64,000 nucleotides of DNA from Sinohyriopsis cumingii (taxonomy: Eukaryota > Mollusca > Bivalvia > Unionida > Unionidae), in contig CM068835.1 of assembly GCA_028554795.2 (NCBI GenBank), forward strand, positions 62,007,219 through 62,071,218. Reading direction: 5' to 3'. The position numbers and the translations under genes are program-made. The notes beneath the pieces are model-generated. The model made no database searches and was not told the origin of the DNA. It worked only from the letters and a program-made list of their open reading frames with translations. Below, piece after piece: positions 29,169 through 51,864 of the stretch. Positions within the stretch are counted from its first letter, which is position 1; the number at the start of each line of letters is the position of its first letter.

Positions 29169-29426
29169 AGCAGCAGAGGGGGCGAATCCGACATTTTGTC
29201 CAATCGTTATTTTGCTTAATTATTACTTTCTGCACTCAAAGATCTAGTGTCGTCAGCGCCTGGTAAAAAAAAAACGACGACGTCGTTGGGGGGTCGACGC
29301 GTCGTCATTTGGTTTAATTAACATCTTCTGCGCGCCGATCCCCAGCGTCGTCAGCGTCCGGTAAGCACATCGACGACCGCGTCGATGTCATCGCCCCCTC
29401 TGCTGCTAAGTGGTTATTTACAATGA
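29169..29426 (+). repeat. Left terminal inverted repeat (258 bp)
   Basis: Reverse complement of 44,727-44,984 with one mismatch (near 29,240). The portion 29,169-29,407 is itself bounded by 16-bp inverted ends (AGCAGCAGAGGGGGCG and its complement). Inside are an 18-bp imperfect direct repeat (29,249-29,266 and 29,347-29,364), a perfect 9-bp stem with 4-nt loop (29,367-29,388) and a run of ten A. It also includes the last codons and stop of the first gene. Confidence 0.95.
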
Positions 29427-30731: not shown

Positions 30732-30736
30732 TATTA

Positions 30737-31273
30737 TTATTCGTTGTCTTTAGTGTCTAATTTCAGCAACCAGGTGGTTCCGGCTTCCAGTTGAAAATCC
30801 TCGATTTTTGACATCGCGGAGCTATACAACTGGACCATTGTGGAGAATTCAACATCGGATACGAACAAATTATCAATCGATAATGAGATCAACCCGGATA
30901 ATTTCGAGTACGCGTCGGATACTATTTGATGTTTTACTGTATACTCGTTGAGTTTTTTCTGAAAACACGATGATATCTTTTTAGTGATTGCGTTGGCGAC
31001 TCCAGCAATTGTTGTCATCGCGGAGATAGCGATTGGAACAGCGATCGGGGCTATCGTGGTTACCGTGGATAAAATAACACCGGTGCCAGCTACTATACCC
31101 GACACCGAGTACACGACCGCGTCGATGGCGGTTATTTTTCGGCGGTATTTTTTTATTTTTGCACGGTATTGTTCGGAAAGCGTTTTCAAGTTCGCGGAGA
31201 ATTCTTTTGCGGTATCGAATCGATATTGATGTGACGTCGGTGATACCTCTGATTCAATTTCCTTGGTGGTCAT
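30737..31273 (-). CDS. Two-helix hydrophobic protein, unrecognised function
   Basis: 178 residues. An amphipathic N-terminal half (residues 20-48, Lys/Arg-rich) is followed by a long hydrophobic Gly/Ala/Val/Ile stretch at about residues 51-95 that could form two membrane-inserting helices, with a GIVAGTGVILS turn. The C-terminal half is helical and soluble. The layout suggests a membrane-active virion or egress protein, which is inference only. A frameshifted homologue occupies 55,717-56,251 with the same neighbours. The stop of the fibre gene and the AATTAAAAAC motif lie just upstream of its start. Confidence 0.75.
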   Translation of the reverse strand: MTTKEIESEVSPTSHQYRFDTAKEFSANLKTLSEQYRAKIKKYRRKITAIDAVVYSVSGIVAGTGVILSTVTTIAPIAVPIAISAMTTIAGVANAITKKISSCFQKKLNEYTVKHQIVSDAYSKLSGLISLSIDNLFVSDVEFSTMVQLYSSAMSKIEDFQLEAGTTWLLKLDTKDNE

Positions 31274-31298
31274 TTTTATTTTAAAAGAACTAGTGTTT

Positions 31299-33014: not shown

Positions 33015-33474
33015 TATTATTGTAAATGTTATTCTCTAAAATCCGTTGAGCTTCTACGACCCCACTAGTGTATTCGTTTACAACCACATGAGGTGGTTTT
33101 CGCGATGATGAAATCGCCGCAAGTACGTTCAATACCTCGCGGCCACATATCGGTGGGTCGCTTAATCGCTGTGTTGGCAGCGTGGAATAAAAAACCCGGG
33201 CTGAACACGCCCGGGCTGAACACGCCCGGACATACCGCATGAACTCTTTCGGCGGGGCTAACCCGTATGAATCAAAATAGACGATCGCACGCGGATCAAT
33301 TGCGTATGCAACCCAATGAGTTCCCGCTCCGGAGGACCCATCGAGGTTAATTATGCCGGTTTCAATATTTCTTGGTGCCGCCGGTAATTGATCCCTCATA
33401 AAAACACCTCTGAAGTTTTTTATCGCTAGCGCGTTTGCGGCATCTATTAAATCAAAATTAGACATGGGAGTCAT
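33007..33474 (-). CDS. Adenain-like maturation cysteine protease
   Basis: About 155 residues from the chosen start. Motifs in order: NFRGVFMRDQLP, GTHWVAYAID (catalytic His), VYFDSYG (catalytic Asp), TQRLSDPP (the oxyanion Gln) and ICGREVLNVL (catalytic Cys). Adenain-type proteases cleave capsid precursors during virion maturation. The frame is open to 33,531, but the upstream gene stops at 33,486, and the methionine at 33,474 or 33,465 directly precedes SNFDLIDAA, where I expect the family to start. A 15-bp tandem duplication (about 33,198-33,229) repeats five residues between the Asp and Cys. A decayed homologue is at 57,165-57,560. Confidence 0.9.
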   Translation of the reverse strand: MTPMSNFDLIDAANALAIKNFRGVFMRDQLPAAPRNIETGIINLDGSSGAGTHWVAYAIDPRAIVYFDSYGLAPPKEFMRYVRACSARACSARVFYSTLPTQRLSDPPICGREVLNVLAAISSSRKPPHVVVNEYTSGVVEAQRILENNIYNNND

Positions 33475-33485
33475 TGACTCCTGCG

Positions 33486-33962
33486 TTAATAAACGGTTCC
33501 CGGTAGTCTTAGACCCTTTCCCGAGTACCATGAATACGGGGTTCCCGGTAGTCTTAGACCCTTTCCGGCCACGGGTCGTTTTTTTTTGTAGCCTTTCCCG
33601 GTTGCCTTCTTCAATGCCATTCCCGCCGCGGTACCAACGGCTCCTAACGCCGCCGCCTTAGCCACTGCTGGTGCGGCCGCGGCAATCAATGCCGGAATCG
33701 CAGCTAACAGCGGAAATATCCCACCGGTCTTTTCCATGTTTTTAATTGCTGCGGCTGAAAAATCTATTTGAACACCCTTTTTATTCTTCATCGCATCATT
33801 GAAATGTTTTATTTGACGCGCCGTCAACGATATCTTATGATTACCACCCGCCATCTGTGACGGCTTCAGCGTTATTGTGATCCCGCATTGTTTAGCCGAC
33901 TTTGATCGTAATTTCTTGACTTGACCATCAGTCAACTCTACATTGACGACACTATACGACAT
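33486..33962 (-). CDS. Small pX/pVI-like virion protein
   Basis: 158 residues. The first 80 contain two similar beta-type segments (TDGQVKKLRSK and TARQIKHFNDA), then FSAAAIKNM. A Gly-Gly-Ile-Phe-led Ala-rich hydrophobic helix follows (residues about 80-115), then a Lys-rich tail with two copies of GKGLRLPGT. Proteins with this layout are standard in Maverick/adintovirus genomes next to the capsid gene. They are compared with adenovirus core or membrane-lytic minor proteins. The GKG sites could be protease cleavage points, which is a guess. The start is preceded by AATTGAAAGC and TTTACAATAA. Confidence 0.75.
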   Translation of the reverse strand: MSYSVVNVELTDGQVKKLRSKSAKQCGITITLKPSQMAGGNHKISLTARQIKHFNDAMKNKKGVQIDFSAAAIKNMEKTGGIFPLLAAIPALIAAAAPAVAKAAALGAVGTAAGMALKKATGKGYKKKRPVAGKGLRLPGTPYSWYSGKGLRLPGTVY

Positions 33963-33991
33963 TTTATTGTAAACGCGTTTTGTGCTTTCAA

Positions 33992-35437
33992 TTACATGTT
34001 TTCCACTGGCGCATCAACGATTCTCATTCGTCCACCAACACCTTCTAGCAGCATTGATTTATCGCTGAGAATGACAGCGACCGCTCTGTAATTAACACCA
34101 CCCGGGGGGGCTATACGAGCTCGGAAGTGTATATCAACGACGGATTGTCTCGTTAAATCAAGATGTTCCAGCGAAAAATAATAAATCGGATACCGGTTTT
34201 TAAAATCAAGTTGTGATATTTGCAAACCAGTGTCGACGTTTTGATCACGACCCATATACGACAGCAATCGATGATACACACGTGCGATATGGTTGTCGCC
34301 GTAATTAAGCTGTATATCCTCGGATGGTTCCTGTTGTCCGTTTATTCTCAGCGAAACATCCCTGACTCCTAATTGATCAAATATCATATGGCTGTGTTCT
34401 TGACTACCCAATCGTTCCCTATTCTGTAACGCTATGAATATATGACGCGGGGCTGAAACACCCTGTTTTGATGCTAGGTGCCATGTAAACGTATCGGCGA
34501 CGTTATCCTCTTTAGCATCAGTTGTTACCGCTAGCCAACTCAACAACGATTTTCCTCCCTGTTCCATAAATGCTAACAATCGTGCTTCCGTGGTAACTGA
34601 TGGAGTCAGCACCGGCATCCACAATGCCATTTTAGTTAAAATGACTTTACCGGCAGCGACGCCAGCAGCACGCCATATTGCATTGTTATCATCGCCCCTT
34701 CGCGTCAGCGCGATTGTATGCTTAGCCCCATAGACAACTTTTCTAACATTTCTGCAGAATCCAAATATGTGATGGAGTGGAATCGCGCATGAAAACTTTC
34801 GGCGTGGTCCTTGCAACATTCCTATTCGTGTTGCAAACCCTAGATTAAAATTATCGTTAGTACTTTTTATGATATTGAACTCAGCACCCGGTCTTGCTCT
34901 GCGGTCTGGGTTGGCTGCTTCAGCTTGATTATTAAATGCGGTATCTCTTTCCACCAGCACGTTGATGTACTGAAGATGATCAGCGTTATCGGTGGAGTCC
35001 TTTGCGAACATTATAGATGGGCCCGCCGATCTTGTATAATCATCCGAGTATCTCGCTAACCCAATTATCGTCGTTGCAACATCAACCTCGCGTTCTATTG
35101 ATTCAATTTCTCGTCCGTCAATAAGATATCTGGCACTCTCAAATAACGCCATGATACCGTTGTTGACGAAGCCAACTCGAACACGATGGTCATCTGCGTA
35201 TGGTGCATTATCGGCGGCATTTGTCACGAGTTCTCCCTCGATTTCGATAAACGCTTCACACGGCAGAAAGTATTTACTGGTATCTTGGACCTGAAGTTCA
35301 ATTCGCGATCGTAGGTCGGGTTGCGCTGCATAATAAGAATAATATTGATAATCACGGACAGAATCATCCCTGCGCACTGGGGCGTCCATATCAAACGCGG
35401 GGTCAGCGGTTCGCGCAAACATTCTATTATTTATCAT
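33992..35437 (-). CDS. MCP: Major capsid protein, double jelly-roll (hexon-like)
   Basis: 481 residues. Features expected of Maverick capsid proteins are present in order: a QYYSYYAAQPDLRSRIELQ start region, FLPCEAFIEIEGEL, VNNGIMALFESARYLIDG, FSCAIPLHHIFGF, a central APRHIFIALQN segment and a C-terminal YPIYYFSLEHLDL. The family forms trimeric pseudo-hexameric capsomers. It is short beside adenovirus hexon, in line with loops being reduced. It sits between two small virion-like genes, as is usual. The stop codon overlaps the AATTGAAAGC motif before the next gene. No homologue survives in the decayed element. Confidence 0.88.
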   Translation of the reverse strand: MINNRMFARTADPAFDMDAPVRRDDSVRDYQYYSYYAAQPDLRSRIELQVQDTSKYFLPCEAFIEIEGELVTNAADNAPYADDHRVRVGFVNNGIMALFESARYLIDGREIESIEREVDVATTIIGLARYSDDYTRSAGPSIMFAKDSTDNADHLQYINVLVERDTAFNNQAEAANPDRRARPGAEFNIIKSTNDNFNLGFATRIGMLQGPRRKFSCAIPLHHIFGFCRNVRKVVYGAKHTIALTRRGDDNNAIWRAAGVAAGKVILTKMALWMPVLTPSVTTEARLLAFMEQGGKSLLSWLAVTTDAKEDNVADTFTWHLASKQGVSAPRHIFIALQNRERLGSQEHSHMIFDQLGVRDVSLRINGQQEPSEDIQLNYGDNHIARVYHRLLSYMGRDQNVDTGLQISQLDFKNRYPIYYFSLEHLDLTRQSVVDIHFRARIAPPGGVNYRAVAVILSDKSMLLEGVGGRMRIVDAPVENM

Positions 35438-35447
35438 GTTGATGTTT

Positions 35448-35960
35448 TCAATTGCGATTTTTTCGTCGTAAATTCTTTGAATTTAAACCACTCCCCGCTA
35501 TCGCGTTCATGAGCGCGTTGGTTGCCGCATCGGCTGATGGCGAAGTCGCCAACGACGGAGTCGTCGCCAACGACTGAGTCGTCGCCAACGACTCTAATTT
35601 TTCTTCCACGGCGTTATTTATTACTTTACTGACATTTGCAGGCATCACTGTCGTTGATGGCATTACCGGTGGTTTCTGTTTTTTTCTCCTGAATTTCACC
35701 AATGACATTAGTTTGTCCCGCGCGGCTGAAAACGCCCTTCCGGCAACATCTCCAATGGCACTAATACCCTTATCACGAATAACATCAATAGCCTTCATTC
35801 CTAATTGTTTGGCTAACGGCGCTACTTTTGGAGCCATTCTTGTAAATAACCCCGCAATGGTGCTACCGAGACCATCTCCATAGTACGCGCGGTAAACAGG
35901 CAATCGCGAGTTTACCACGTAGACGAGTACTGGTTTATCATGGTTGTAGTGTATGATCAT
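35448..35960 (-). CDS. Small Gly-rich virion-like protein (minor capsid type)
   Basis: About 170 residues from the ATG at 35,960; an in-frame GTG lies five codons upstream. Near the N-terminus is YYGDGLGSTIAGLFTRMAP followed by an amphipathic Ala/Lys-rich helical region (residues about 45-95), a pattern common in Maverick/adintovirus minor virion proteins. A basic stretch (FRRKKQK) and three Ser-Leu-Ala-Thr repeats come next, then a basic C-terminus. Probable role is internal or membrane-interacting minor capsid protein, by position and composition. Its stop (AAT TGA) is part of the AATTGAAAAC motif upstream of the capsid gene. Confidence 0.7.
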   Translation of the reverse strand: MIIHYNHDKPVLVYVVNSRLPVYRAYYGDGLGSTIAGLFTRMAPKVAPLAKQLGMKAIDVIRDKGISAIGDVAGRAFSAARDKLMSLVKFRRKKQKPPVMPSTTVMPANVSKVINNAVEEKLESLATTQSLATTPSLATSPSADAATNALMNAIAGSGLNSKNLRRKNRN

Positions 35961-35986
35961 CCTTATTAAAAACACCAGTTTTCCAA

Positions 35987-36928
35987 TTAATCATCCACGA
36001 GTTCGTCTATGAGCGTTCGATATGCATTAATGTCCATAATACCGCCTGCAAATAACCGCTTGCAAATATCAGCGGCCTCATTGATTATTTCCGTAGAGTT
36101 ATTTCCGGCTCGTTTTCCTCCAATTAGTACTTCCAGCCGTGATATATCACTGAGAACACTATTAGGGCAGGTAACGCCGTAGGATTCTTTACCAACAGGG
36201 TATCCTTTTCCTTTTTTTGGTGTTCTACTCTTAACTTTCTCGAGGAATTTATCGTAATCGGGATCACCACGATGTGGTAATGCTTCTCTATGTTTACTCG
36301 CTAAATACACTATTCTTGCCCAGTTCTCCGTCGAGGTTATTTTTTTCTTGTAACCTTCATTGATATACTCATCTCGAATGCTCTTAGTTGATGTTGTAGC
36401 AACAAAATTAACTAATTCTTCATCGTCGTCGATGTCTCTAATTTGATCTATTGCGGACTTTTTAAGAACATTACGGGGTATATTTCCCTCTTTCTTTTTT
36501 TCTTTCGATGTTTCTTCGGGTGTTTCTTCGGGTATTTCTTCTTCTGGTTCTTTCGCAGTAGCACCTAATTCTTCCTCGTCGGCCATTGTAACATAAGGTT
36601 CTTGTGGTTCGGTTATAGCGAGTGGTGGTGGCCTCCGTGTTGTAGCAGCCGCTATTTTTGCAGGGAGTGTTTCTAAAGACCTTTTTGTTTGTTTTGTCTC
36701 TGCCGCTATCTTTTCAAGCGCACCAAGAACGGGTACAGTTGCCGCCGTAACATCCTTAGTCGCTTTAGTTACCGGGGCAAAGAGTTGTTCGCTTCCAACA
36801 GTAAAATCGGTTTGCATTTGTTGTCGCGTTTGAAGTTTCTCTCTCACCCTGTCTCGTAACGGTATAAACTTTTTAAGCGCTGCTAGCCGCTCTCTGGCTA
36901 GCCGAGTAGTAAGTGATTCACCTACCAT
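35987..36928 (-). CDS. Unrecognised protein with acidic middle and conserved C-terminal region
   Basis: 313 residues. The N-terminal 95 residues are helical and basic, then a Pro/Thr stretch, then a Glu-rich segment (residues about 120-145). The region from about residue 165 (RDEYINEGYKKK, ENWARIVYLA, then GKGYPVG and CPNSVLSD) is retained in the decayed element at 57,560-58,080, so it is the constrained part. The end is helical. No family recognised. Position upstream of the capsid genes suggests a virion assembly or scaffold role, which is inference only. The TTTACAATAATG start context is shared with other genes here. Confidence 0.7.
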   Translation of the reverse strand: MVGESLTTRLARERLAALKKFIPLRDRVREKLQTRQQMQTDFTVGSEQLFAPVTKATKDVTAATVPVLGALEKIAAETKQTKRSLETLPAKIAAATTRRPPPLAITEPQEPYVTMADEEELGATAKEPEEEIPEETPEETSKEKKKEGNIPRNVLKKSAIDQIRDIDDDEELVNFVATTSTKSIRDEYINEGYKKKITSTENWARIVYLASKHREALPHRGDPDYDKFLEKVKSRTPKKGKGYPVGKESYGVTCPNSVLSDISRLEVLIGGKRAGNNSTEIINEAADICKRLFAGGIMDINAYRTLIDELVDD

Positions 36929-36952
36929 TATTGTAAATTGATCCGCAATTTT

Positions 36953-37333
36953 CTAATTTTCCGCCGAGTGTACCATCGGGGGCTCCACGGAGTTTTCGTC
37001 TATAATCCTTCTAATGTTTTTGATCTTACTAGAAATCTCCCGGCGTCGTTCATAAACACGTCCGAGTTTTTTTCGTATTATTTCAACGGCAGTAAATAGT
37101 CCAATGAATGCATTTGCGTCATTGTGGTACAAGTTTTCATTGATCGTATGTTGTAATCGTTTTATAAAAAAGTACTCGCGGGCCAGGGTAAAACGCCCCC
37201 GTTTCGACTGTTCGTTAATAATCTCATAATCGGATAATATTTTTTCACTGTCGAGACCATCAGATAATTCAATTCCTTGATTTTTTAATTTTGAAATCTC
37301 AGTTAATATATTATTGATGTCTTCGATATTCAT
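36953..37333 (-). CDS. Unrecognised helical protein
   Basis: About 126 residues from the methionine at 37,333; the frame is open to 37,366 but the methionine after TTTTATAAGAATA fits the homologue better. It is almost entirely helical and charged (EKILSDYEII, then REYFFIKRLQ, then RKKLGRVYERRREISS), ending IDENSVEPPMVHS. The decayed element has a homologue on the opposite relative strand at 53,190-53,627 sharing MNxExIN, the central helix and a final IDEN segment, but with an added acidic stretch. No function assigned. Confidence 0.65.
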   Translation of the reverse strand: MNIEDINNILTEISKLKNQGIELSDGLDSEKILSDYEIINEQSKRGRFTLAREYFFIKRLQHTINENLYHNDANAFIGLFTAVEIIRKKLGRVYERRREISSKIKNIRRIIDENSVEPPMVHSAEN

Positions 37334-37394
37334 TATTCTTATAAAACATCTTATTTCTAATATCAAAAATTTTAATAAAATTTAATAAAATTAT

Positions 37395-37420
37395 TGGGGT
37401 CATTTTTGACCCCGTTTTTT
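37395..37420. terminator. Small GC-rich hairpin with T tract
   Basis: GGGGTCA and TGACCCC arms around a short T loop are followed by GTTTTTT. It lies just upstream of the leftward gene start, so a transcription-end or RNA-processing role is possible for transcripts coming from either side. This is inference from shape only. Confidence 0.35.
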
Positions 37421-37422
37421 GT

Positions 37423-37537
37423 ATGGACAGTACAATGCCGTAAATCCCCACTCGAGTGTTGTGGCAGATTACAGGCATACATGGACAGTACAATGCCGTA
37501 AATTTCCACTCGAGTGTTGTGGCAGATTGCAGGCATA
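37423..37537 (+). repeat. Two-copy 58-bp tandem repeat
   Basis: Units at 37,423-37,480 and 37,481-37,537 share ATGGACAGTACAATGCCG, CACTCGAGTGTTGTGGCAG and AGGCATAC. They differ by about three substitutions. Short frames through them are spurious. Confidence 0.9.
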
Positions 37538-37751
37538 CACATATACTTAATTAAGGACATTCACATCTTGGAACCCTAAACATACATCTCCGGGAGGGGA
37601 GGCCTAGGGTGACAAACGTCATCGTAGACCTCCCAGAAGATATGCTTAGGGACATCACTACATGGATGAATATATTTACAATGAAATGATTGATGGATGA
37701 TGGGACGGCACAAGACAGCACAAACATAAAACGGCGGGGCGGAACTCTACG

Positions 37752-37869
37752 GCCAATTCAACCAATCAAAAGCAACCCAATTAAATTAACCCGGTTGCAT
37801 GATTGTAAACAAAAGACAACCACACGCCCGGGTTAAGAGCGTGGGTTAGTTTTGATTAGTTGAATTGGC
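37752..37869. repeat. Nested inverted repeat followed by TATA box
   Basis: Outer arms 37,752-37,779 and 37,842-37,869 match at 25 of 28 positions. Inner arms 37,786-37,794 and 37,828-37,836 (TTAACCCGG and complement) match perfectly. A TATATATAA lies about 35 bp to the right. Could be an origin hairpin or promoter element. Confidence 0.8.
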
Positions 37870-38133
37870 TTTCGAAAGCCCCAGGCTTATAACGAGTCAT
37901 CTTATATATAAAGTGACTAATACAGCGGCGTCAGTCACAAGGTGTGTGTTAATTTGAATCCCCTTGAATCGTTAAACCCTTAAATACTTATTAATGGTGT
38001 TTCACGGCATTTAAATGAAACCAAATACTCAAATAAAACATTAAAAAAAAGAATACAGCTGTTAGATAATAGCGTGTATTTTATTAGTTTTCATCGTAAA
38101 ATGATTAATTAATCGCAACATTAATTGGACTTC

Positions 38134-38187
38134 AAGGGACATAACTCTTGTCATGAGACGCTATCACAAAACGAGTTATCTCCCTTT
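38134..38187. repeat. 54-bp foldback with molluscan-type AAGGGAGATAACTC arms
   Basis: Arms AAGGGACATAACTC (38,134-38,147) and GAGTTATCTCCCTTT (38,173-38,187) are inverted complements with one mismatch. I know this arm as a very common short repeat in molluscan genomes. It supplies the final codons and stop of the HNH gene. A similar foldback is at 52,381-52,434 in the decayed element. Confidence 0.8.
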
Positions 38188-38678
38188 GATGTTATATATG
38201 AAAATCGAATTCTGTGACCCGTCTTTTTTGAGATCGCTGTTTTAGTTATATTCTCCGCAACATCTAGAACTGATTTACTACAAATATCGAAGTATTTACC
38301 AGCCGCATTCATAGAGCGAAATATTTTTTCCTCGTGCGTTATTGTATCAAATGACTTTACGGGTTTTGCCTTTCTCATCCCTCCTGTTTTTCCAAATTTG
38401 GAATTTTGACTCGGTGTAACAGCTCTTAGATTACACAGTCTGTTATTTTGAGGACATCCATCAATGTGATCAATAACGAGACCGTCGTTGATCAGTCCGT
38501 TAAACGCTTCATACACCATCCTGTGAATAAGACAGATTTTTTTCCCAGCATTAAATCGCAAGTATCCGTGATTATTTACGGTACCAACCGGCTTCTTCAG
38601 TCTGCGGTTTCTAACAATACCGTCGCGAGATGCCTCGTAATTAACAAACACAGGGTGAGATCTGAACTCTTGGTCCAT
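38151..38678 (-). CDS. HNH endonuclease with NUMOD-type domains
   Basis: 175 residues. The N-terminal part (NYEASRDGIVRNRR) resembles a NUMOD4-like segment, the middle holds an HNH core with LIHRMVYEAF, VIDHIDGCPQNNRLCNLR (the His and Asn of the motif) and SQNSKFGK, and the C-terminal SMNAAGKYF resembles a NUMOD1-like DNA-binding repeat. Such proteins are free-standing homing-type nucleases common in phages and large viruses. No intron or intein is visible here, so it could be selfish or work in element replication. The C-terminal residues come from the inserted foldback repeat at 38,134-38,187. No equivalent was seen in the decayed relative. Confidence 0.88.
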   Translation of the reverse strand: MDQEFRSHPVFVNYEASRDGIVRNRRLKKPVGTVNNHGYLRFNAGKKICLIHRMVYEAFNGLINDGLVIDHIDGCPQNNRLCNLRAVTPSQNSKFGKTGGMRKAKPVKSFDTITHEEKIFRSMNAAGKYFDICSKSVLDVAENITKTAISKKTGHRIRFSYITSKGDNSFCDSVS

Positions 38679-38691
38679 TTGTATAATAATA

Positions 38692-39015
38692 CTACTTGTC
38701 TAATTTATTATTTGGTTTAATTATAAACCTTGCAATGTAGTCCTGAGGAGTTTTGATGACGAAGTCTGCGGTGGGGTCAATGACGGCGTTTTTAATTCGC
38801 TTGTCATAATAGCGTTTTAGTTCCCTGTATCGCTTTCCGCCACAATTGATACACAACTGCGATTTTCCTCTTACACCGACGTGGCAAACCAAGCACGGTA
38901 GGGGGCCAAGAGAGCCATTACGAACGCTTTGTAAATGATATCCGCAGAATTCACCTCTACATGATTTATTGCACGGGGTTGTCGACCCAATCATCAACCA
39001 TTTGCATTTATTCAT
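38692..39015 (-). CDS. Small Cys-rich (zinc-binding) protein
   Basis: About 107 residues from the methionine at 39,015; the frame opens at 39,033. Cysteines occur in pairs or near pairs: CKW, PCNKSCRGEFCGYH, PCLVCHVG and LCINCGG, followed by a basic RYRELKRYYDKR helix. This suggests two zinc-binding knuckles and a nucleic-acid-binding tail. It is transcribed divergently from the polymerase gene with 20-40 bp between starts, so a shared promoter is likely. A stop-riddled homologue with the same cysteine spacing lies at 51,908-52,145 beside the decayed polymerase. A role in replication is inferred from this constant pairing. Confidence 0.75.
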   Translation of the reverse strand: MNKCKWLMIGSTTPCNKSCRGEFCGYHLQSVRNGSLGPLPCLVCHVGVRGKSQLCINCGGKRYRELKRYYDKRIKNAVIDPTADFVIKTPQDYIARFIIKPNNKLDK

Positions 39016-39054
39016 TATACTATATTCTTTCATTTAAATACTTGTTTTAATTAT
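39016..39054. promoter_or_regulatory. Divergent promoter between Cys-rich and polymerase genes
   Basis: Only 21-39 bp separate the two divergent starts, and the interval is AT-rich with a TATAGT-like box near 39,020 and TTTAAATA near 39,035. A bidirectional promoter is the simplest reading. Confidence 0.5.
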
Positions 39055-42000
39055 ATGGATGAGTTTGAGAGATTAGCAGTAATTAAGCCCTGGAAAAATA
39101 TTAAGTTCAATCTCGATAGAGTCCTCAAGGACACACCAAAAGCGTTAATAAACGATAGAACCCTGTTAAATAAAATACGCGATTGTATCGATGAATTCAA
39201 ACGTGATGGTGCATCTCATAGTTGGTCAACATTTCGAATTGATGGCGTTGTTGATGCTACCATGAACGACAACCGCGCAGCAATGATAATGTCACAACTT
39301 GACGGTAAAAGGTATTTCTTCAGAGTAAAATTCATTGTCCGGGTGAAATCAGGCGATTGGATCATACGTGATAAATTTGAACCAGTTCTCAGCGACAAGA
39401 AAACAGTCACTGTCAGCCGCGACTCCAAGCCGGGGTTGTTAACCGGAATTGACAGACCATACTATGAACGAGCGTATCCTGAAACAGCAGTTGTTTATGG
39501 AATATACCCGTTAAATAAGAAACCTGATATCGGAAAACTGAAACCGATGAAACAGTCAACGGGGATAAATTGTGTAGCAGAACGAATAATAGAGCATTTT
39601 ACAAATGCGTGTCGAGGAAACAAATTGACTGATTTACGACGTAGCAAAATCAACCAGTGGGAACTAACCGTAAAAGAGCGTGGAGCGACCATCAGCGACA
39701 TAGCGAGATTAGAAACGTCGTTGAGATTTCCAATAACCGTTACAACGATAACCGGTGAAGTATTATACGAATCAAAGTACAAATCAAATGGAGCCCCAAT
39801 CAAAATTATTGATCATAACGAACACGCATGGACGCCCGCGATCACAATATTTCCACGGGATAGAACAGTAAAGTATATCCCGGGGGGATTTTTAGGAGAG
39901 GACGGTTTTCTCGCGGAGAGGAAACTATTTGATGCTATTGCCTACTTGTGTAAAAATGACCCTGTATCAGTGTGGTTACTTCGCAGCGCTGAAAACGACA
40001 TGGATACCTTTGATCAGTTTGTAAGACCAAACGGCGAATTATATCGCACTGAAGCATTTCACAACAGGATGAAAAAAACCGCCATGGAATTTGAAGAGCA
40101 TGATGAACAACTGCTAACAAATTGTTTTACGATTCCATCGGTTGTAGCTCATGTTGCAGCAAGGAAAAATGCGTGGAGACCAACGCGCAAGGAATTTCTA
40201 CCGGATGTACAATCCAGTTGTTTGGAATACTATCACGGTGGACTATGGAACACTGAATACAACCGCGACGCTATGATCTCGGTTGATATGGTTGCCTGTT
40301 ATCCAGCGAGTTTTCTCGGGTATGGATCCGCCGCTGAATATTTCAAACGATTTGGACACCCCAGTCATGAAATGACTCGTGTTGCTATTAATGGACCACT
40401 GCCTGATTTTGATTTAACCGGATTCGCTCGCATAGTATCATTTGAATTCGCGGCAGGACTCCATCGCTGTTGCTATATTTGGATCGGTAGACACATGGCT
40501 GAAAAGAAGTGGTTGCCAATAGCGCTGCTACGGTATATGATTGATTGTAGCATGCTAGTTTCGTTGATTGTCAGTGACGCGATTATATCATACCGGGCGC
40601 AGACTGAAGTCTGGTTACCAGAACCGGAGCGTCCAGATAGCATAATTGACGAGTCCAGAAAAAACATTGATGCCGACGAGGAATATATCATCGAATGGTC
40701 CAGGAGGATATTTAACCAACGAAACCGCGAGGCAAAAGATCTCGGTAGAAGAATAATTGGTAAGTTCACACAAGGTGGAAAAAACTGCGACTACAAACGA
40801 TATTGCTCACGGCTGATTATAGATGACGCAGAATATGATTTCGTAATCAAGGACGCAGTGGCAAAAAATAGATACGTGAACTGCAAAACAGCTTTCTTGT
40901 CCAATGGAACAAAGTTGGGTACAGTTGTTACCTACAGCGACAGAGACAGCCCGGCGTATCCACATTTGAGGGCGTCTATGCTGGGTTATGCCGCTATCAA
41001 TTTATTCTCGATGATAAATAGATTCCCCGATACCGCGGTTAGAGTAGCCGTTGATTCGTTTTATGTTGACGTAGCGTATAAGGAAAACGTAGCCGAGTTT
41101 ACTAGTCCGGACGAGAGTTGGGGTACATGGAGAATTAAAAATGAAATACGACGCGATTATTCCCCGTCAGCAGATGTCACCGTTGAGAACAACTACTTAC
41201 GCGGTGATAAATTGTCAGAATGGTCTAATGCACCATCGTGTTCTGATCCAATTTGTAGACACAAGACGGTTTATTTAAGCGGCTGTGGCGGGTCAGGAAA
41301 GACGACTCGGGCAATTGAATTATTTCGAACGCGGGCAAGTATAATCGTGCTTACACCGACCCATAGACTAGCGCGAGAGATAAAACAACGAAATGTTGAC
41401 GCCGTTACTTATCACAGCTTTTTTCGATACAGCGGCGGTGAGTGGACTCCTGATCGAATGGGTGAAAAATTTATTCCTGAGGTTATCATCTGGGACGAAA
41501 TATGTACTGTTTCGTTAGATACTTTACAAATGTTTCTTGAGTGGCTGCTGCGCGCGAATACAGCGGTGATCATGTGTGGCGACCATGGCCAACCACCACC
41601 ATTTGTCGGCGAGGGTCCACATGAGTGGTTGAGCGGGTTCGTAGACTATTATGAAGAAACCGATACTGATTACCGAGCACTTGATGAACAACTGCGCGAG
41701 GTTAAAAAACTAATCAGATTACAGCCGGATAAAATTCAATGTGAAATAATCCGCGAGGTGATTCCGGAAACGCCGTTGAATGAATTCTGGGAAACATGGA
41801 GACCAAACGATTTGATTGTAGCGAGTAGAAAGATAGTCAGAGACACACTTCAGCGGAAGTTGTTTGCGTTGCATAAGGAAAAGTTTCCAACGCGTCCAGT
41901 GCCGTTATGTTATAGACCCGCGGACACACGGCAGCAGAACATTGAAGTTGAAATCCCGGGCCCGACAGCGTCAGGGACAAAAAAACAAATTCTCGTGCTG

Positions 42001-42531
42001 AATGATATCGTGCTCGTTGATATCAGCGTCGTCGAGGACGCGCTACGTGCTAATAAATCCCCGTGGACGCTAGGATACGCAACAACAATACATTCCTCGC
42101 AGGGACTAACCATCACGGACACAATTGTTTGGATGGTTGATAATCGCATCGAATGGTCGAATCTAGTCTATCTTGCAGTGTCCCGAGTACGAAGGATAAA
42201 TCAGCTTCGAAGAATTGTTATTGACGGAGTCAGTGACGAAGCCAGTGACGGAGTCATCGATGCAAGCGTCATTGATAGAAAACTCTCGGGTTACCGCCAA
42301 CAGGATAAAAAAAAACAGCGGCGTTTTGATATTGATGCCGAATTAATAATTGCGTTACGACAACAACAGAATAATCACTGCGCGAGTTGTAATTGTGTAA
42401 TGCGCTGGCGTTATTCGGATAAAGACGCTCGCCAATTTACCGTGGACAGGATCGATAACAGTCTCGGTCATGTCAAAAACAATGTGAGGTTGACCTGTCT
42501 TGAGTGCAATAGACGCAACGGCGCTAGTTAA
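39055..42531 (+). CDS. Family-B DNA polymerase fused to SF1 helicase and HNH nuclease
   Basis: 1158 residues. About 1-400: unassigned N-terminal region containing IIDHNEHAWT, without exonuclease motifs that I can find. Palm: SVDMVACYPASF (motif A, Asp411), GKFTQGG (motif B, Lys570) and VAVDSFYVD (motif C, Asp667). Helicase: GCGGSGKTT (Walker A, from 743), VIIWDEI (Walker B, Asp814-Glu815), GDHGQPPP (from 842), TIHSSQGLT and YLAVSRVRR, an SF1 RecD/Pif1-like order. C-terminus from about 1098: CASC, FTVDRIDNSLGH, then CLECN, an HNH or recombination-endonuclease-like module. One chain could unwind, copy and cut element DNA. The start is supported by the homologue at 51,864. It converges on the integrase gene with an 8-bp overlap. 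Confidence 0.88.
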   Translation: MDEFERLAVIKPWKNIKFNLDRVLKDTPKALINDRTLLNKIRDCIDEFKRDGASHSWSTFRIDGVVDATMNDNRAAMIMSQLDGKRYFFRVKFIVRVKSGDWIIRDKFEPVLSDKKTVTVSRDSKPGLLTGIDRPYYERAYPETAVVYGIYPLNKKPDIGKLKPMKQSTGINCVAERIIEHFTNACRGNKLTDLRRSKINQWELTVKERGATISDIARLETSLRFPITVTTITGEVLYESKYKSNGAPIKIIDHNEHAWTPAITIFPRDRTVKYIPGGFLGEDGFLAERKLFDAIAYLCKNDPVSVWLLRSAENDMDTFDQFVRPNGELYRTEAFHNRMKKTAMEFEEHDEQLLTNCFTIPSVVAHVAARKNAWRPTRKEFLPDVQSSCLEYYHGGLWNTEYNRDAMISVDMVACYPASFLGYGSAAEYFKRFGHPSHEMTRVAINGPLPDFDLTGFARIVSFEFAAGLHRCCYIWIGRHMAEKKWLPIALLRYMIDCSMLVSLIVSDAIISYRAQTEVWLPEPERPDSIIDESRKNIDADEEYIIEWSRRIFNQRNREAKDLGRRIIGKFTQGGKNCDYKRYCSRLIIDDAEYDFVIKDAVAKNRYVNCKTAFLSNGTKLGTVVTYSDRDSPAYPHLRASMLGYAAINLFSMINRFPDTAVRVAVDSFYVDVAYKENVAEFTSPDESWGTWRIKNEIRRDYSPSADVTVENNYLRGDKLSEWSNAPSCSDPICRHKTVYLSGCGGSGKTTRAIELFRTRASIIVLTPTHRLAREIKQRNVDAVTYHSFFRYSGGEWTPDRMGEKFIPEVIIWDEICTVSLDTLQMFLEWLLRANTAVIMCGDHGQPPPFVGEGPHEWLSGFVDYYEETDTDYRALDEQLREVKKLIRLQPDKIQCEIIREVIPETPLNEFWETWRPNDLIVASRKIVRDTLQRKLFALHKEKFPTRPVPLCYRPADTRQQNIEVEIPGPTASGTKKQILVLNDIVLVDISVVEDALRANKSPWTLGYATTIHSSQGLTITDTIVWMVDNRIEWSNLVYLAVSRVRRINQLRRIVIDGVSDEASDGVIDASVIDRKLSGYRQQDKKKQRRFDIDAELIIALRQQQNNHCASCNCVMRWRYSDKDARQFTVDRIDNSLGHVKNNVRLTCLECNRRNGAS

Positions 42532-43468
42532 GACCACGCGGGGGTAATTGAGTATCGTCAGGTATCACTTGTAGTTGCTCGCGTGTAAATCCGCGCTGAG
42601 GAGCAGTTGAATCCAGTCTGTAGATCGGTGGTCTACCAGTTGATCGTGTTATCGTTGATATGTTATGTGTGGTAACACTCCAAATAGGATCAGTAGCTCT
42701 TTTTTTACCGCCTTCAAGCTCTCCTGGTTCATATAGATATCTCACGGTGACATTGCCGAGAATCGGCTTGGAAACGCTATTTATTTTTGATTTTCCGGGT
42801 ATATACTCGTATTTAATCGCGTCGCTGGGCTTAATGTTGATTGCTCGGGTAATCTCGTTATTTAACGCTGCAATTACACCTGGCAACCTTTTAACCCATT
42901 CACGAGATCGTTTTTCCTGAATGAATTCCTTCGCGTATTGATATCCAAATAACCGTTCAGCGAGAGTCCGATTGAATCGTTCAACAATTGCCTGATCACG
43001 ATGTAGCGCAGTATGACCTCGTCGTACCGCGACGCTATGATGTTTCAGCGTTGATAAAACAGTGCCGCGAAATTCACTACCGGGATCAACTTGTAATAGA
43101 TTTGGCCAGCGCAGAGGGCCTCTTCGATAAATTCTTTCAAACGCAGCGGCTACTTCAGTTGCCGACTTTGTTTTTAACGGTTCCGCTTGTTTGTATCGAC
43201 TCGCAACATCAACTACGGTTAGCGCGTATTTGTAACCGTTGTCATGCGGCAGAAATAATATATCAGCCTGATGAACTTCATTAGGTACGCTGACATCAAA
43301 GCGCGAGAAGTTGATTTGTTTAGGCGGTGGTAGATAGATTTGCCATATAGCCTGTTTGGATAACCAATTAGCCGCAGTGGTCTTTGTTACCTTTGCAGCG
43401 CTTGCAAGCTTACCAATTGCGGCCTTCCCCTTCCAGTATCCTCTCGGAGAATAATAGATGGATTCCAT
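42524..43468 (-). CDS. INT: DDE (rve-type) integrase
   Basis: About 314 residues from the methionine at 43,468; the frame is open to 43,525 but the homologue at 47,352 starts at the equivalent MxSIxYSPxGY. An N-terminal helix-turn-helix-like region (KGKAAIGKLASAAKVTK) replaces a zinc finger. The catalytic core has HQADILFLP (first Asp), QVDPGSEF (second Asp) and AIVERFNRTLAERLFGY (Glu), with 34 residues between the second Asp and Glu by my count. The C-terminal ITRSTGRPPIYRL and QLQVIPDD segments resemble the SH3-like region of Maverick integrases, and no chromodomain is seen. It catalyses insertion of the linear element with short target duplications. Confidence 0.93.
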   Translation of the reverse strand: MESIYYSPRGYWKGKAAIGKLASAAKVTKTTAANWLSKQAIWQIYLPPPKQINFSRFDVSVPNEVHQADILFLPHDNGYKYALTVVDVASRYKQAEPLKTKSATEVAAAFERIYRRGPLRWPNLLQVDPGSEFRGTVLSTLKHHSVAVRRGHTALHRDQAIVERFNRTLAERLFGYQYAKEFIQEKRSREWVKRLPGVIAALNNEITRAINIKPSDAIKYEYIPGKSKINSVSKPILGNVTVRYLYEPGELEGGKKRATDPIWSVTTHNISTITRSTGRPPIYRLDSTAPQRGFTREQLQVIPDDTQLPPRGLN

Positions 43469-43500
43469 GTTGTTATTATAAACGCTAGCGTTTTCAATTA
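43469..43500 (-). promoter_or_regulatory. AATTGAAAAC motif upstream of integrase
   Basis: On the minus strand, GGTAATTGAAAACGCTAGCG precedes TTTATAATAA and the integrase start. The TGA inside the motif is the stop of the phospholipase frame. The same arrangement occurs at other junctions of the element and, as GGTAATTAATAA, in the decayed relative. Confidence 0.55.
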
Positions 43501-44032
43501 CCAGCGCGAGAAGCTCCGCTTCCAATCATTAATTTACCTTTCATAGCCGATTTTACCAACCATGAAGCCAATTTTTCTTTGAATGATTTATCAGGAATGG
43601 CATTTAACGCGTGAATTAATTTTACATCCGCGATATGACGCTGTTGCAGATCGCTACTTTTGTAAGCAACATCATGAACATGACACGCCTTATCGATAGC
43701 GTTTATTGGATACTCACCGGGTTTGGGCTGATTTTGATCATCGAGTCTGATATCTAATCGTGTTCCGGGGCCACAGTAGTTATATCCTGGGAGGTGTTTT
43801 TCTCCTGGATACTTTGCCCACGGTGTTCCGGGGAGTTTTGATAACCTGGCTGCAATATCACCTCCTCGCTTTTTTTTAAAACATCCCCGGGTTTAATAGA
43901 AATAAATCTAAATTTCTTTGTACCGCATTGTGCACACTTACCAGTAAGGGCCGATCTGTTATTTCTTGTTGTAGCGGTTGTCATATCATTTGTGCCAGTA
44001 CGTACTCTACACTTCACACAATATAGATCCAT
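43494..44032 (-). CDS. PLA2: Zinc-ribbon (DUF5679-like) / phospholipase A2 gene with -1 frame break
   Basis: The first frame (from 44,032) begins YCVKCRVRTG, followed by KCAQCGTKKFRF, a two-knuckle DUF5679-like ribbon of about 50 residues. The -1 frame then encodes KYPGEKHLPGYNYCGPG (calcium loop) and ACHVHDVAYK (catalytic His-Asp), a parvovirus-VP1-like phospholipase A2 that would help breach endosomal membranes. The PLA2 frame has an upstream stop near 43,891 and no early ATG. The frames meet at a slippery TTTTAAAAAAAA (43,870-43,881) that suits a -1 shift. In the decayed relative the two domains lie in one frame, so the parts belong to one gene. Either programmed frameshifting or a one-base indel in the A run explains this copy. 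Confidence 0.85.
43870..43881 (-). promoter_or_regulatory. Putative -1 ribosomal frameshift site
   Basis: On the minus strand, TTTTAAAAAAAA is read by the zinc-ribbon frame as GTT TTA AAA AAA, containing a T TTA AAA heptamer that permits simultaneous -1 slippage. The -1 frame is exactly the phospholipase frame. Short complementary blocks (CCGGGGA upstream, TCCCCGG downstream) flank it. An assembly or mutational indel in the A run is the alternative. Confidence 0.5.
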
Positions 44033-44049
44033 AATTTATGTATAGAGAT

Positions 44050-44712
44050 ATGAATATAATTGATTTTTCGGCGACTAAAACAAGAGAACCAGTTAAGCAT
44101 GTTGCAGCGTTACCAAACTCGATCCGGATGATTATCATCGGACCATCTGGATCCGGCAAGACGCAATTGTTACTCAATTTAATAATGAGATGGATGAAGT
44201 GGGATAAGTTGTATTTGGTTGCTCCTAGCGTAGATGATCAACGATGCTACGAGGTGTTGAAAGATTTCAACGAGAATGCATCAGCGATCGCTAAAAAAAA
44301 TGTCATCAAGTTTATTACGGATATCAATGATGCGCCAGGTATCGATGATATTGATGGCGACGTTAACAATCTAGTCGTGTACGATGATGTTATGTTAGAC
44401 AATCAAAAAAACCCAGCTAGGATATTTTCCAGAGGCAGGCATAAAAACACCGACGTGATATATGTCACTCAACGATACACTCAGATTCCAAAAGTAATCA
44501 GAGACAACTGTAATATTCTTGCTGTATTCAACGGCGTTGATACACACACGCTACGAAATATTTGGCAGACATGGTGCGGCGGTGACATGGACTTTAATGT
44601 TTTTCGAAACTTTTTTAGTCATGCTCAGTCGACCCCACATGGATTCGTAACGATAAATTTACATGATCCTCGGACACGATATCGTATTGGACTTGACCAA
44701 ATATTCGGTTAA
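44050..44712 (+). CDS. Packaging ATPase (FtsK/HerA, A32-like)
   Basis: 220 residues from the methionine at 44,050, preferred because the homologue starts MDVIDFS; the frame opens four codons earlier at 44,038. Motifs: RMIIIGPSGSGKT (Walker A), NLVVYDDVM (Walker B, about residues 113-121), then RIFSRGRHKNTDVIYVTQRY (the sensor region with Gln) typical of A32-like genome-packaging ATPases. It would pump the linear genome into the capsid. It is transcribed divergently from the zinc-ribbon/PLA2 gene with 5-17 bp between starts and ends 15 bp before the right inverted repeat. A dead homologue lies at 46,100-46,786. Confidence 0.92.
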   Translation: MNIIDFSATKTREPVKHVAALPNSIRMIIIGPSGSGKTQLLLNLIMRWMKWDKLYLVAPSVDDQRCYEVLKDFNENASAIAKKNVIKFITDINDAPGIDDIDGDVNNLVVYDDVMLDNQKNPARIFSRGRHKNTDVIYVTQRYTQIPKVIRDNCNILAVFNGVDTHTLRNIWQTWCGGDMDFNVFRNFFSHAQSTPHGFVTINLHDPRTRYRIGLDQIFG

Positions 44713-44726
44713 ATTGTAAATAATTT

Positions 44727-44984
44727 TCATTGTAAATAACCACTTAGCAGCAGAGGGGGCGATGACATCGACGCGGTCGTCGATGTGCTTACCGGACGCT
44801 GACGACGCTGGGGATCGGCGCGCAGAAGATGTTAATTAAACCAAATGACGACGCGTCGACCCCCCAACGACGTCGTCGTTTTTTTTTTACCAGGCGCTGA
44901 CGACACTAGATCGTTGAGTGCAGAAAGTAATAATTAAGCAAAATAACGATTGGACAAAATGTCGGATTCGCCCCCTCTGCTGCT
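44727..44984 (-). repeat. Right terminal inverted repeat (258 bp)
   Basis: Inverted copy of 29,169-29,426 with one substitution and equal length, including the ten-base homopolymer. Its inner boundary (44,746, AGCAGCAGAGGGGGCG) and outer boundary (44,984) are inverted copies of each other. Followed by the GGTTT target duplication at 44,985-44,989. Confidence 0.95.
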
Positions 44985-44989
44985 GGTTT

Positions 44990-48569: not shown

Positions 48570-51500
48570 TAAACGAGCGCCTCGATATCAGTTACATTCA
48601 AGACAGGTCAGCGTTACATTTTTGCGTGTATGACCCAACTTACTATTAATTCTGTCTACGGTAAATGATCTTGGATGATTAAGCATATTACTCCACAACG
48701 TTACTGTATTACAGCTCGTACAATAATTGTTCTTAGCTGTTCTGTCAGCATCTTTATAAATTCAACATCAAGGTCAAAGTCGTGCTTAATTTGTTTATCA
48801 TAACTTTAATAACTAACTATTATGTTTTATTATATCATTGTCAATAACATCATCTTTGGTTTTTGTAAAGTCCATGACAAACCTCCCCAATTGAGATAAT
48901 TTTAACTCTAGACACTACGAGGTAAACTAAATTTGACCATTCGATACGAACATTGATGTTCCAAACTCGCGTATCGGAAATAGTAAACCCCTGAGATGAG
49001 TGTATTGTCATCGCGTATCCTATCGTTCACGGAGACTAGTCAATTTGTAGCGCATCTTCATCAACATTGTTAGGAACCAAAACAATATCATTTAGTACAA
49101 AATTTTGTTTTTCTGACGATCCTTGAATATCAACGTCGATATTCTGCCGTCGTGTATCAATCGGTCGGTAACATAATGGTACTCGTAGATTTGAAAACCT
49201 TTCTTTATGTAACATAAATAATTGTTGTTGAATTGTATCAGGAACTATATTTCTACTCGCAACTATCAAATCATTTGGTCTCCACAAATTCCAAAAATTG
49301 TTAATATGGGTTTCTGGAATTATTTCACGCATTATTTCACACTGACATTCATTCGGTTGTAGTCTGATTAATTTCTTAAACTCTCCTAAATCTGGATCAA
49401 GTGCTCTGTGATCATAATTTATTTTTTTCATAAAAATCAACAAAATTCTTTAACCATTTATGTGGAGACAATCCGACAAAAGGTGACGGTGGACCATGAG
49501 CGCCACATATTATTACAGCAGTATTTTTTTTAAATAACCCTTCAAAAAACATGTTTAATGTTTCTAACGACACTGTACATATTTCATCTCAAACAATAAT
49601 CTTTCGAATGTATTTTTCGCCTATTCGATCAGGAGTCCATTCATCTCCTTTCCATCGAAAGATTTTATGATAAGTACATTATTTCATATTTTTTTCTCTC
49701 ATTTCTCGTGCGAATCTGTGTGTAGTGGTTAAAACGACCATATCAAAGTTCCGAAATGGTTCAATCACACGAGTTGTTTTACCAGAATCTCTTGTTCCCT
49801 TAAGATAAACTGTTTTATGTCCAGCTACGGGATCATACACTGACGGTGCTGATGACAATTTTGATATTTGATTATTTTTTAAGATAAATACCTTTGATTT
49901 CAACGTCGTCGGATTCAGAATAATCAAGTTTGTTTTCATGTTTTATTCTCCATTCGCCCTATGATGCACAATTGCAGATATTTAATTTTTCCAACAATCC
50001 TGAAAAATTTATATTGATATAAAACGTATCCATAGCAATTCTGACAGAAAATTTAGAAATCCTATTTATCATCGATCATAGTTATATCGAAACGTACGCG
50101 ATCATTGAAGATCTTAAATGAGTACACTTCGGTGACTCGCCATCCATATAACTTACAATTGTACTTAATTTGGTTCCGGCCGATACATTATCATTGCTTA
50201 GACTTATAAATGTATTTGTTTTCGTTGTATCGGTAATTATAAAATCTAACTAAGAATCGTCTATAACAAATCTTGTACAATGTGATATGCCATATGATCC
50301 TCGTTGGGTGAATTTACCGATAATTTTTCTGCCGAGATCTTCTCCAATTTTATTTTTGTAATCAGTTATATCAGGATTTTTATCATGACACTGTTTCTTT
50401 TGTTGTGGTAACCAAACTTCTTTCCGCAAACGGTATGATATAATTGCTTAACTTATTGTCAGAATATTGTATCTTTTGTCACCCACATATTTCTTCTGAA
50501 AAATATTTGCCAAACCAGACATAACAAATTGGATAAAGATTTTCAGCAAACTTAAATGACTCGATACAAGCGAATCCAGTCTGGTTCAAATCCGGTAATG
50601 GTCCGTTTATCGATACTCTGGCTATTTCGTGTGGGGTGACCAAACTTTTCAAAAATATACAGAACACTCTCCCATTCCAAGAAAACGTCTGGGATAACAT
50701 GTAACCATATCAACCGAGATAAATCTCTGTGATAGTATTTACTGTTCCACAATCCACCTTGTCCTTATTCGACACAACTCAATATTACATCATCGAGAAA
50801 ATCAAACCGAGTTGGTTTCAACAAATTTTGTCTCTAGCAAAATGAGCCGCAACTGACGGAATCTTAAAACAATTACTGAATAATTGTTCCGCATCATTGG
50901 TATATTTTTATTCAAGATATTTTCATTTCTTCGCGGAGAGATTCTTTGCGATCAATAACGCCATTTGGTCGTACAAACAGATCATAGTTTCCAATATGAA
51001 AACTTTGAAATTATCATAATGAAAAAGGATCGTTTTCACTTATTTCAATAATAAAAACCGAATATATCTCCTTGGTAAATGACAATTCGATTTCATGGAA
51101 ATATTGTTACTGCATTAGTCCACGCATGCGTATTATGCAAAATAATTTCAATCGAAGCTCCTTTTGATTTATATTTTGATTCAAACAAAATCTTTCCTCT
51201 AATCGTTTTTATTATTGTTTTCTTTCCTAGCTCAGCGTCATTTTTGACAGACGCTCCGGTATCTTTAACTATGTCTTCCCACTCGTTTATAACATTACGT
51301 CTTTTATGTGTTAGACCGTTTCCACGAATCGAAACGGTTACTCGTTAGTCTTGAAAATTTAATTGGTTTTAAATTATTAACGCTGGGTTTATCATTTATC
51401 GGATAACTGCTGTTACAGTTCTTTCATAATACAGTTTGTCAATACCAGTCAACATTCCTTGTTTGGAATTTTGAATGAGTATGGTACATTTGTTATTATG

Positions 51501-51864
51501 AAGGACAAGATCATATTTGTCACGGATAATCCAGGTTGTATTGTCTGTTTCTGCTAATACAACAAACTTTACTCTGAAAATTATCTTCGATTATCGATTG
51601 TCAAGATAATTACTGATGGTCGCCGCTCATTGCTCGTTCATTGTAGCATCGACACCTTCCTCATTGTGTATGATTTTGAATGTTGACCACACATGAGATG
51701 CACCATCTTTGTTTAATTCTTTCTTGGTGTCATGAATTTGTATTAATCAAGGTTTTATTCTTCCGCTCAACCAGAGCTTTCGTCAGTAAGTCAGGGTATA
51801 TTCTGTCAAGATCAAATATATCTTTAGCAGGTTTAATTTTTGATAATCTCTCGAATTCATCCAT
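48570..51864 (-). pseudogene. PolB-SF1 helicase-HNH remnant
   Basis: Starts MDEFERL at 51,864, like the intact gene. Retained blocks include FGHPTRNSQ near 50,640 (palm), a Walker-A-like GTRDSGKTT in 49,679-49,939, the WRPNDLIVASR block in 49,036-49,443, and a C-terminal TVDRINSKLGHT...CLECN HNH module near 48,600-48,700. There are many stops and frame shifts. The same domain order as in 39,055-42,531 shows that the triple fusion predates the split of the two elements. Confidence 0.88.

Follow-up and report, generated by a model that had tools for sequence, protein, structure and literature searches.

Fusions of a protein-primed family-B DNA polymerase (pPolB) with a superfamily 1 (SF1) helicase (S1H) are known from polinton-like viruses (PLVs), Tlr1 and transpovirons, and the passages of Krupovic et al. 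(2024; PMC11071308) on these Tlr1-like helicases propose for them the name pPolB-S1H, with the order terminal protein (TP), vOTU, palm and S1H, and a TP fold that varies. According to the same passages, a vOTU cysteine protease with a conserved Cys and His lies directly before the palm, the Tlr1-like helicases have no exonuclease, and the C-terminal tails in different PLVs are of the GIY-YIG or HNH type. Motif C of the polymerase lacks the first Asp and keeps the second, in the Tlr1-like helicases as well as in the active PolB of mavirus, and since mavirus PolB and others that lack this Asp are active enzymes, Krupovic et al. predict an active Tlr1-like polymerase, for which a combination of polymerase, helicase and nuclease without proofreading has been proposed (PMC11071308). 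Here we describe a locus in a 64,000-nucleotide stretch of the genome of the bivalve Sinohyriopsis cumingii (contig CM068835.1, positions 62,007,219 to 62,071,218, forward strand; hereafter the window), in which an element encodes a protein of 1158 residues. We conclude that this protein is probably the replicase of a Tlr1-type polinton, with a priming region, a vOTU-like protease, an exonuclease-less protein-primed PolB palm, an SF1 helicase and an endonuclease-VII-type HNH domain. A first-pass annotation of the window had regarded the fusion as unusual and new, and this view had to be given up, as a palm and S1H with a GIY-YIG or HNH tail and without exonuclease is already described for PLVs, Tlr1 and transpovirons in the passages cited above. 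The fused architecture is thus known from Tlr1-like helicases, and the interest of the present case lies in the host, the copy number, and the coexistence with proofreading Polintons.

Palm-like motifs, helicase and HNH domain in one gene

The start and stop of the replicase gene were read in the window, where the frame of 1158 codons is intact and lies exactly where the first-pass annotation had placed a single protein with an SF1 helicase and a C-terminal HNH domain. The parts of the gene, and a second, decayed replicase in the window, are as follows (window positions; dN/dS, ratio of nonsynonymous to synonymous divergence).

39055..42531, + strand: pPolB-S1H-HNH replicase gene, 1158 aa, single ATG-to-stop frame
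39055..39534, + strand: N-terminal domain, residues 1-160, at the presumed terminal-protein position; fastest evolving part, dN/dS 0.455
39535..39894, + strand: predicted vOTU-like domain, residues 161-280, with C173 and H254/H257; dN/dS 0.055; place and role after passages of PMC11071308
39895..40254, + strand: short stretch at the place of the canonical exonuclease, residues 281-400, free of exonuclease motif strings, with a YxGG-like motif at 393-396
40255..41214, + strand: palm candidate, residues 401-720, with motif A D411/Y416/P417, motif B K561/G569/K570 and motif C A665-V-D667-S668; profile comparison not significant
41254..42210, + strand: SF1 helicase, residues 734-1052, with Pfam, PDB, PHROG and NCBIfam matches
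42295..42525, + strand: endonuclease-VII-type HNH domain, residues 1081-1157; PHROG endonuclease VII 1.7e-10
48576..51864, - strand: remnant of a second-family replicase with its pieces in the same order, lying in the opposite orientation to the intact element

A search of the host genome (2,904,868,851 bases in 1138 contigs) revealed at least 40 places with full-length replicases at 97-100% protein identity. We examined the best 28 of the 40 protein matches listed (L001-L008 and L052-L071), and the replicase is open in every one of them, with 1155-1163 codons; the nearest copy differs from the window gene at 5 of 3474 bases, and the furthest of the 27 others at 87. Since the frame is open in all 28 copies and has a pooled pairwise dN/dS of 0.193, it cannot be a chance frame, and it is confirmed that the 1158-residue replicase is a real gene in which helicase, HNH domain and palm-like motifs are joined in one protein. 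The dN/dS is low in every part, with 0.055 for the vOTU-like part, 0.208 for the helicase, 0.225 for the palm, 0.229 for the HNH domain and 0.455 for residues 1-160, and these values are stable to the removal of any copy, with narrow leave-one-out ranges. The synonymous divergence (dS) itself varies about fourfold along the replicase (0.025 in residues 1-160, 0.092 in residues 161-280), and this unevenness suggests recombination or gene conversion between replicase subfamilies.

That the decayed neighbour shows the same order, and that the fusion is old, had been proposed from the window, and both points hold for this genome. Pieces of the neighbour match replicase residues 1-39, 38-281, 295-452, 407-716, 715-868, 865-1048 and 1100-1157, among others, in this order, and the second family also comprises a copy (L019, 916 codons from the first ATG) that contains palm motifs, helicase and HNH domain in one frame and is 66% identical to the window replicase. 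One piece of the decayed neighbour has at least 150 matching places in the genome, where the longest open frame over the piece, that of L019, has 947 codons; there was no full-length second-family replicase among the 150 matches listed.

As judged from profile matches, it is certain that the replicase contains an SF1 helicase of the RecD2/Dda-like type, which follows 3' of the palm candidate. The Pfam models AAA_19 (2.7e-11) and AAA_30 (4e-8) both match residues 734-849 past their cut-offs, a PHROG of Dda-like helicases matches with 3.4e-17, and the NCBIfam model RecD2 with 2.5e-9, a value far under the equivalog cut-off of that model. The top PDB match of the replicase is 5ftb (3.7e-8), labelled 'TPR DOMAIN PROTEIN', which we take to be a bacterial Pif1; PDB entries labelled PIF1 gave only weak matches (0.06-0.5), and RecD-labelled entries were likewise weaker than 5ftb. 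A comparison of our profile A1 with the PDB supports the helicase as well.

The HNH domain comprises the last 77 residues according to the PHROG match, and Pfam HNH gave only 1.7. Endonuclease VII, the closest match, is a junction-resolving nuclease, and this relationship argues for a role in replication, as do the presence of the domain in both families, the retention of its Cys, His and Asn residues in 28/28 first-family copies, and a dN/dS (0.229) like that of the helicase. The domain could instead be the remnant of a homing endonuclease or intein that rides on the replicase and has no part in replication. Passages of Krupovic et al. (2024; PMC11071308) explain the GIY-YIG and HNH tails in this way, and in the window a free HNH_3/NUMOD1 endonuclease (38151-38678) adjoins the replicase. 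In view of the conservation we consider this origin less likely than not.

The palm candidate and the N-terminal region

The motifs of a family-B palm can be read in the expected order, as Y393-H-G-G, D411-MVAC-Y416-P417, K561-(7)-G569-K570-F571 and A665-V-D667-S668, and an ordered four-motif scan had its top hit at 390/408/559/660, which are the expected places with a pPolB-like spacing (single ranks 6, 8, 1 and 2 among about 1150 positions). In motif C the first Asp of DTD is gone and the second is kept. The residues D411, Y416, P417, K570, A665 and D667 are invariant in 28/28 first-family copies, and among the open pieces of the second family we found D667 in 28/29, D411 in 23/28 and K561 in 27/29 (K561 was counted in the second family, not in the first), and Ala at position 665 in 21 of at least 28; these pieces stem from mostly broken copies, and some of the changes represent decay or misplaced ends. 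In the top local hhalign hit to phage pPolBs, A665-V-D667-S668 lies on DTDS in register, with a score inside the shuffled range.

Several results weigh against a palm at this position. In motif B, Arg and Ile stand in place of the Asn and Tyr of K...NS.YG, with K561, G569, K570 and F571 retained, and the four-motif score was equalled by 98 of 500 shuffles. No family-B polymerase model was matched by the replicase in Pfam (whole protein), PHROGs or NCBIfam, where the only polymerase-named match was DNA polymerase III psi at chance level (0.092), and Pfam gave 0 families each for the palm piece and the N-terminal piece. A palm profile of 98 open pieces and the replicase itself (P0001), compared by hhalign with a null of 60 column shuffles, scored 15.5 vs 14.2 +- 2.1 (shuffled) against eight phage pPolBs, which is not significant, and 16.7 vs 15.3 +- 2.3 against a pair of canonical pPolBs from the host genome, with an alignment off the motifs. 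A comparison of a 3-row palm profile with two phage pPolBs was not significant either, while the positive control, in which this canonical pair was matched to phage pPolBs, reached E 3e-18. Two AlphaFold2 predictions were unusable: the whole chain, run as a single sequence, reached a mean predicted local distance difference test score (pLDDT) of 31.8, and residues 360-735, run together with three pieces from the window, one of 33.8. Finally, the choice of the best 28 protein matches biases dN/dS downward, although residues 1-160 still reach 0.455 under the same choice. The family-B palm of the first-pass annotation is therefore retained as a weakly supported candidate, on the strength of the order of its motifs, their conservation and its agreement with the published architecture rather than of independent statistics.

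Even if the palm fold is accepted, the domain could be a dead structural remnant, so that the protein would act as a helicase-nuclease and the DNA would be copied by a host polymerase or by a canonical pPolB of the same genome. This would agree with the loss of the first Asp in motif C and of Asn and Tyr in motif B, with the lack of profile similarity, and with the title of Krupovic et al. (2016), in which the fusion is called an 'inactivated DNA polymerase'. A potential substitute is also at hand: canonical DNA_pol_B_2 genes occur at no fewer than 75 places of the host genome (150 matches), with an exonuclease part (profile about 8-216) and a palm part (about 210-426), and many of these frames are open, with 1334-1363 codons (e.g. 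L100, L101). One genome thus houses both canonical, exonuclease-bearing Polintons and the helicase-fused type. However, D411, Y416, K570 and D667 would hardly be expected to remain invariant in 28/28 copies of a dead palm, its dN/dS is about equal to that of the helicase, and mavirus and other PolBs are described as active without the first Asp (passages of PMC11071308), and we therefore regard a dead palm as unlikely. That residues 401-720 are no PolB at all, with motifs arising by coincidence in an unrelated linker domain, would fit the shuffle result, the negative hhalign comparisons beside a strong positive control, and the occurrence of a D....YP string also in the capsid protein of the element (presumably by chance), but this is very improbable given how the motifs are ordered and spaced, the catalytic residues conserved in both families, and the Tlr1-like helicases, which have the identical architecture and a palm backed by structure (passages of PMC11071308).

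Upstream of the palm candidate, constraint on the replicase is strongest in residues 161-280 (dN/dS 0.055). C173, H254 and H257 are invariant in 28/28 first-family copies and nearly so in the second-family pieces (19/20, 17/18 and 18/18, respectively); the broken copy L020 has a deletion spanning the His. By its place and its Cys and His residues, this region is a predicted vOTU-like domain. The first-pass annotation had overlooked this strongly conserved Cys/His set in the N-terminal 400 residues, as well as the missing first Asp of motif C and the degenerate motif B, whereas its observation that exonuclease motifs are lacking was reproduced: the strings D.E, N..(.)[FY]D and Y...D are all absent from residues 1-410. 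This absence is suggestive and not a proof, as 41 of 1000 shuffles of the same residues likewise lack all three strings. The distance from the vOTU-like part to the palm candidate is about 120 residues, and the exonuclease domain of phi29 comprises about 190 residues. A Pfam profile check of the N-terminal region, of the kind suggested with the initial annotation, found no exonuclease, and by its sequence the replicase appears to lack a 3'-5' exonuclease domain. Twelve other open reading frames of the element, scanned with Pfam, have no DNA polymerase match and supply neither polymerase nor exonuclease; a further frame of 113 aa (38692-39033) was checked for motif strings only.

The polinton-type element and its copies

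The replicase gene lies in a polinton-type element at 29169-44984, as judged from the ends and from the genes that it carries. These features are, in window coordinates:

29169..44984, no strand assigned: whole element of 15,816 bp, ending in 258-bp terminal inverted repeats and flanked by a 5-bp target duplication
29164..29168, no strand assigned: target site duplication GGTTT, left
29169..29426, + strand: left terminal inverted repeat, begins AGCAGCAG
44727..44984, - strand: right terminal inverted repeat, 258 bp
44985..44989, no strand assigned: target site duplication GGTTT, right
33007..33531, - strand: adenain-like cysteine protease (weak), Pfam Peptidase_C5 0.0061, under curated cut-off
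33992..35437, - strand: double-jelly-roll major capsid protein, Pfam DJR-like_dom 5e-17
38151..38678, - strand: separate HNH_3/NUMOD1 endonuclease, Pfam HNH_3 1e-14
42524..43525, - strand: rve integrase, Pfam rve 7.4e-9 (past cut-off), NCBIfam IS481 8.6e-17 (under cut-off)
44038..44712, + strand: A32-like packaging ATPase, Pfam Pox_A32 4.4e-12

The two terminal inverted repeats differ by a single mismatch, start with AG and end with CT. We fetched the end regions of nine other copies, of which one (L037) has an end outside its stretch, and in all nine copies with both ends readable (the window copy and eight others) the element is flanked by perfect 5-bp duplications. These duplications lie at different sites and thus represent real insertions. 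With intact 5-bp duplications and a nearest copy that deviates at only 5 of 3474 bases, the element has been mobile recently.

Some further observations were made at these loci. In L027, a second inverted repeat end is seen about 230 bp beyond the end of the copy (453-711 and 943-1199), possibly from a nested or neighbouring insertion. In the second family, a relative of the HNH_3/NUMOD1 endonuclease was recognized by eye at the matching position (L019, 8086-8604). At 31299-33014 (- strand), the element encodes a fibre-like protein of 571 residues with many 21-residue repeats, and the DNA shows self-matches at multiples of 63 bases. Outside the element, a small open frame at 19722-20060 (- strand) contains VLYMDTDSLLLQ, a canonical-looking PolB motif C, and has no Pfam match; it apparently derives from a different, decayed element.

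Comparison with known systems and a possible replication mode

Among the described systems, the Tlr1-like helicases (Tlr1 of Tetrahymena, TvV-S1, transpovirons) share with the replicase the order of N-terminal domains, palm (here a candidate), S1H and endonuclease, the lack of an exonuclease and the loss in motif C, as far as they are covered in the passages cited above; PLVs also share the double-jelly-roll capsid protein and the ATPase, and Tlr1 the rve integrase. The tail of Tlr1 is of the GIY-YIG type, whereas the replicase described here ends with an endonuclease-VII-type HNH domain and has a further degenerate motif B. The hosts of Tlr1-like helicases are protists or algae, in contrast to the 2.9-Gb animal genome analyzed here, and the likeness is one of architecture, with the known members compared by their description. 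Canonical Polintons/Mavericks share the terminal inverted repeats starting with AG, the rve integrase, the double-jelly-roll capsid protein and the A32-like ATPase, but they encode a pPolB with exonuclease, which in our element is replaced by a replicase with helicase and HNH domain and no exonuclease. For vertebrate Mavericks, a 6-bp target duplication is given in a passage of PMC8097293, compared with 5 bp here. An adenain-like protease, another trait of canonical Polintons, is a weak candidate in our element. The polinton-like element OmPLV of Oxyrrhis also has an SF1 helicase fused to pPolB, but there the helicase is N-terminal and the exonuclease and full pPolB are kept (PMC12721341), whereas here the helicase follows the palm candidate. 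The pPolB of mavirus resembles the predicted layout of the replicase in its TP-vOTU-palm order, in having lost most of the exonuclease and in lacking the first Asp of motif C, and it differs by a separate superfamily 3 helicase (S3H) and the lack of a fused S1H (passages of PMC11071308). SF1 helicases with a GIY-YIG tail occur in 16 Cryptomonas PLVs, and PLV-like elements in insects are mentioned in the same text (PMC12220804).

Our database scans did not reveal closer relatives. Viral contigs yielded none, whether P0001, profile A1, the helicase, the ATPase, the capsid protein or a GD.GQ.PPF pattern was used; 16 viral contigs matching the pattern were rejected as chance matches. A viral-contig scan with phage helicases added gave at least eight significant contigs, with the helicase part alone, and a genome-contig collection scanned with profile A1 contained no PLV relative. 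Among phage records, 64 appeared at E up to 1, and the 30 listed match the helicase or HNH parts. In the literature surveyed, which did not include the 2016 paper defining the fusion, we found no report of a pPolB-S1H fusion in an animal, and we do not claim a first description.

If the replicase acts as a Tlr1-type polymerase, DNA synthesis would start from a protein primer at the terminal repeats of the linear element, and the vOTU-like domain may then cleave the replicase from the primer. The palm would copy one strand of a duplex opened by the fused helicase, and the HNH domain could cut branched or other replication intermediates. The ATPase might package the copies into a double-jelly-roll capsid, the rve integrase might insert them with a 5-bp stagger, or both might occur. 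In outline, this agrees with the suggestion of the first-pass annotation that polymerase, helicase and nuclease are combined without proofreading, as proposed for Tlr1-like helicases in the passages of Krupovic et al. (2024; PMC11071308), with the palm fold as the predicted part. We tentatively go one step further, to a reading that may well turn out otherwise: a Tlr1-type replicase lineage without proofreading, composed of palm, helicase and a resolvase-like HNH domain that is a working third module and not a homing passenger, could still be mobile and high in copy number in the germ line of an animal, alongside proofreading Polintons and integrating with a 5-bp stagger of its own.

The pPolB-S1H replicase, which has been described from protists, algae and transpovirons, would thereby extend to a recently mobile element of an animal genome. 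Exonuclease-bearing canonical Polintons reside in this genome as well, which allows a comparison of both replicase types within one host. The substitution spectra of both families would bear directly on the fidelity cost of exonuclease loss, and the same comparison would show whether the fused helicase compensates for it, as suggested in the passages of Krupovic et al. (2024; PMC11071308).

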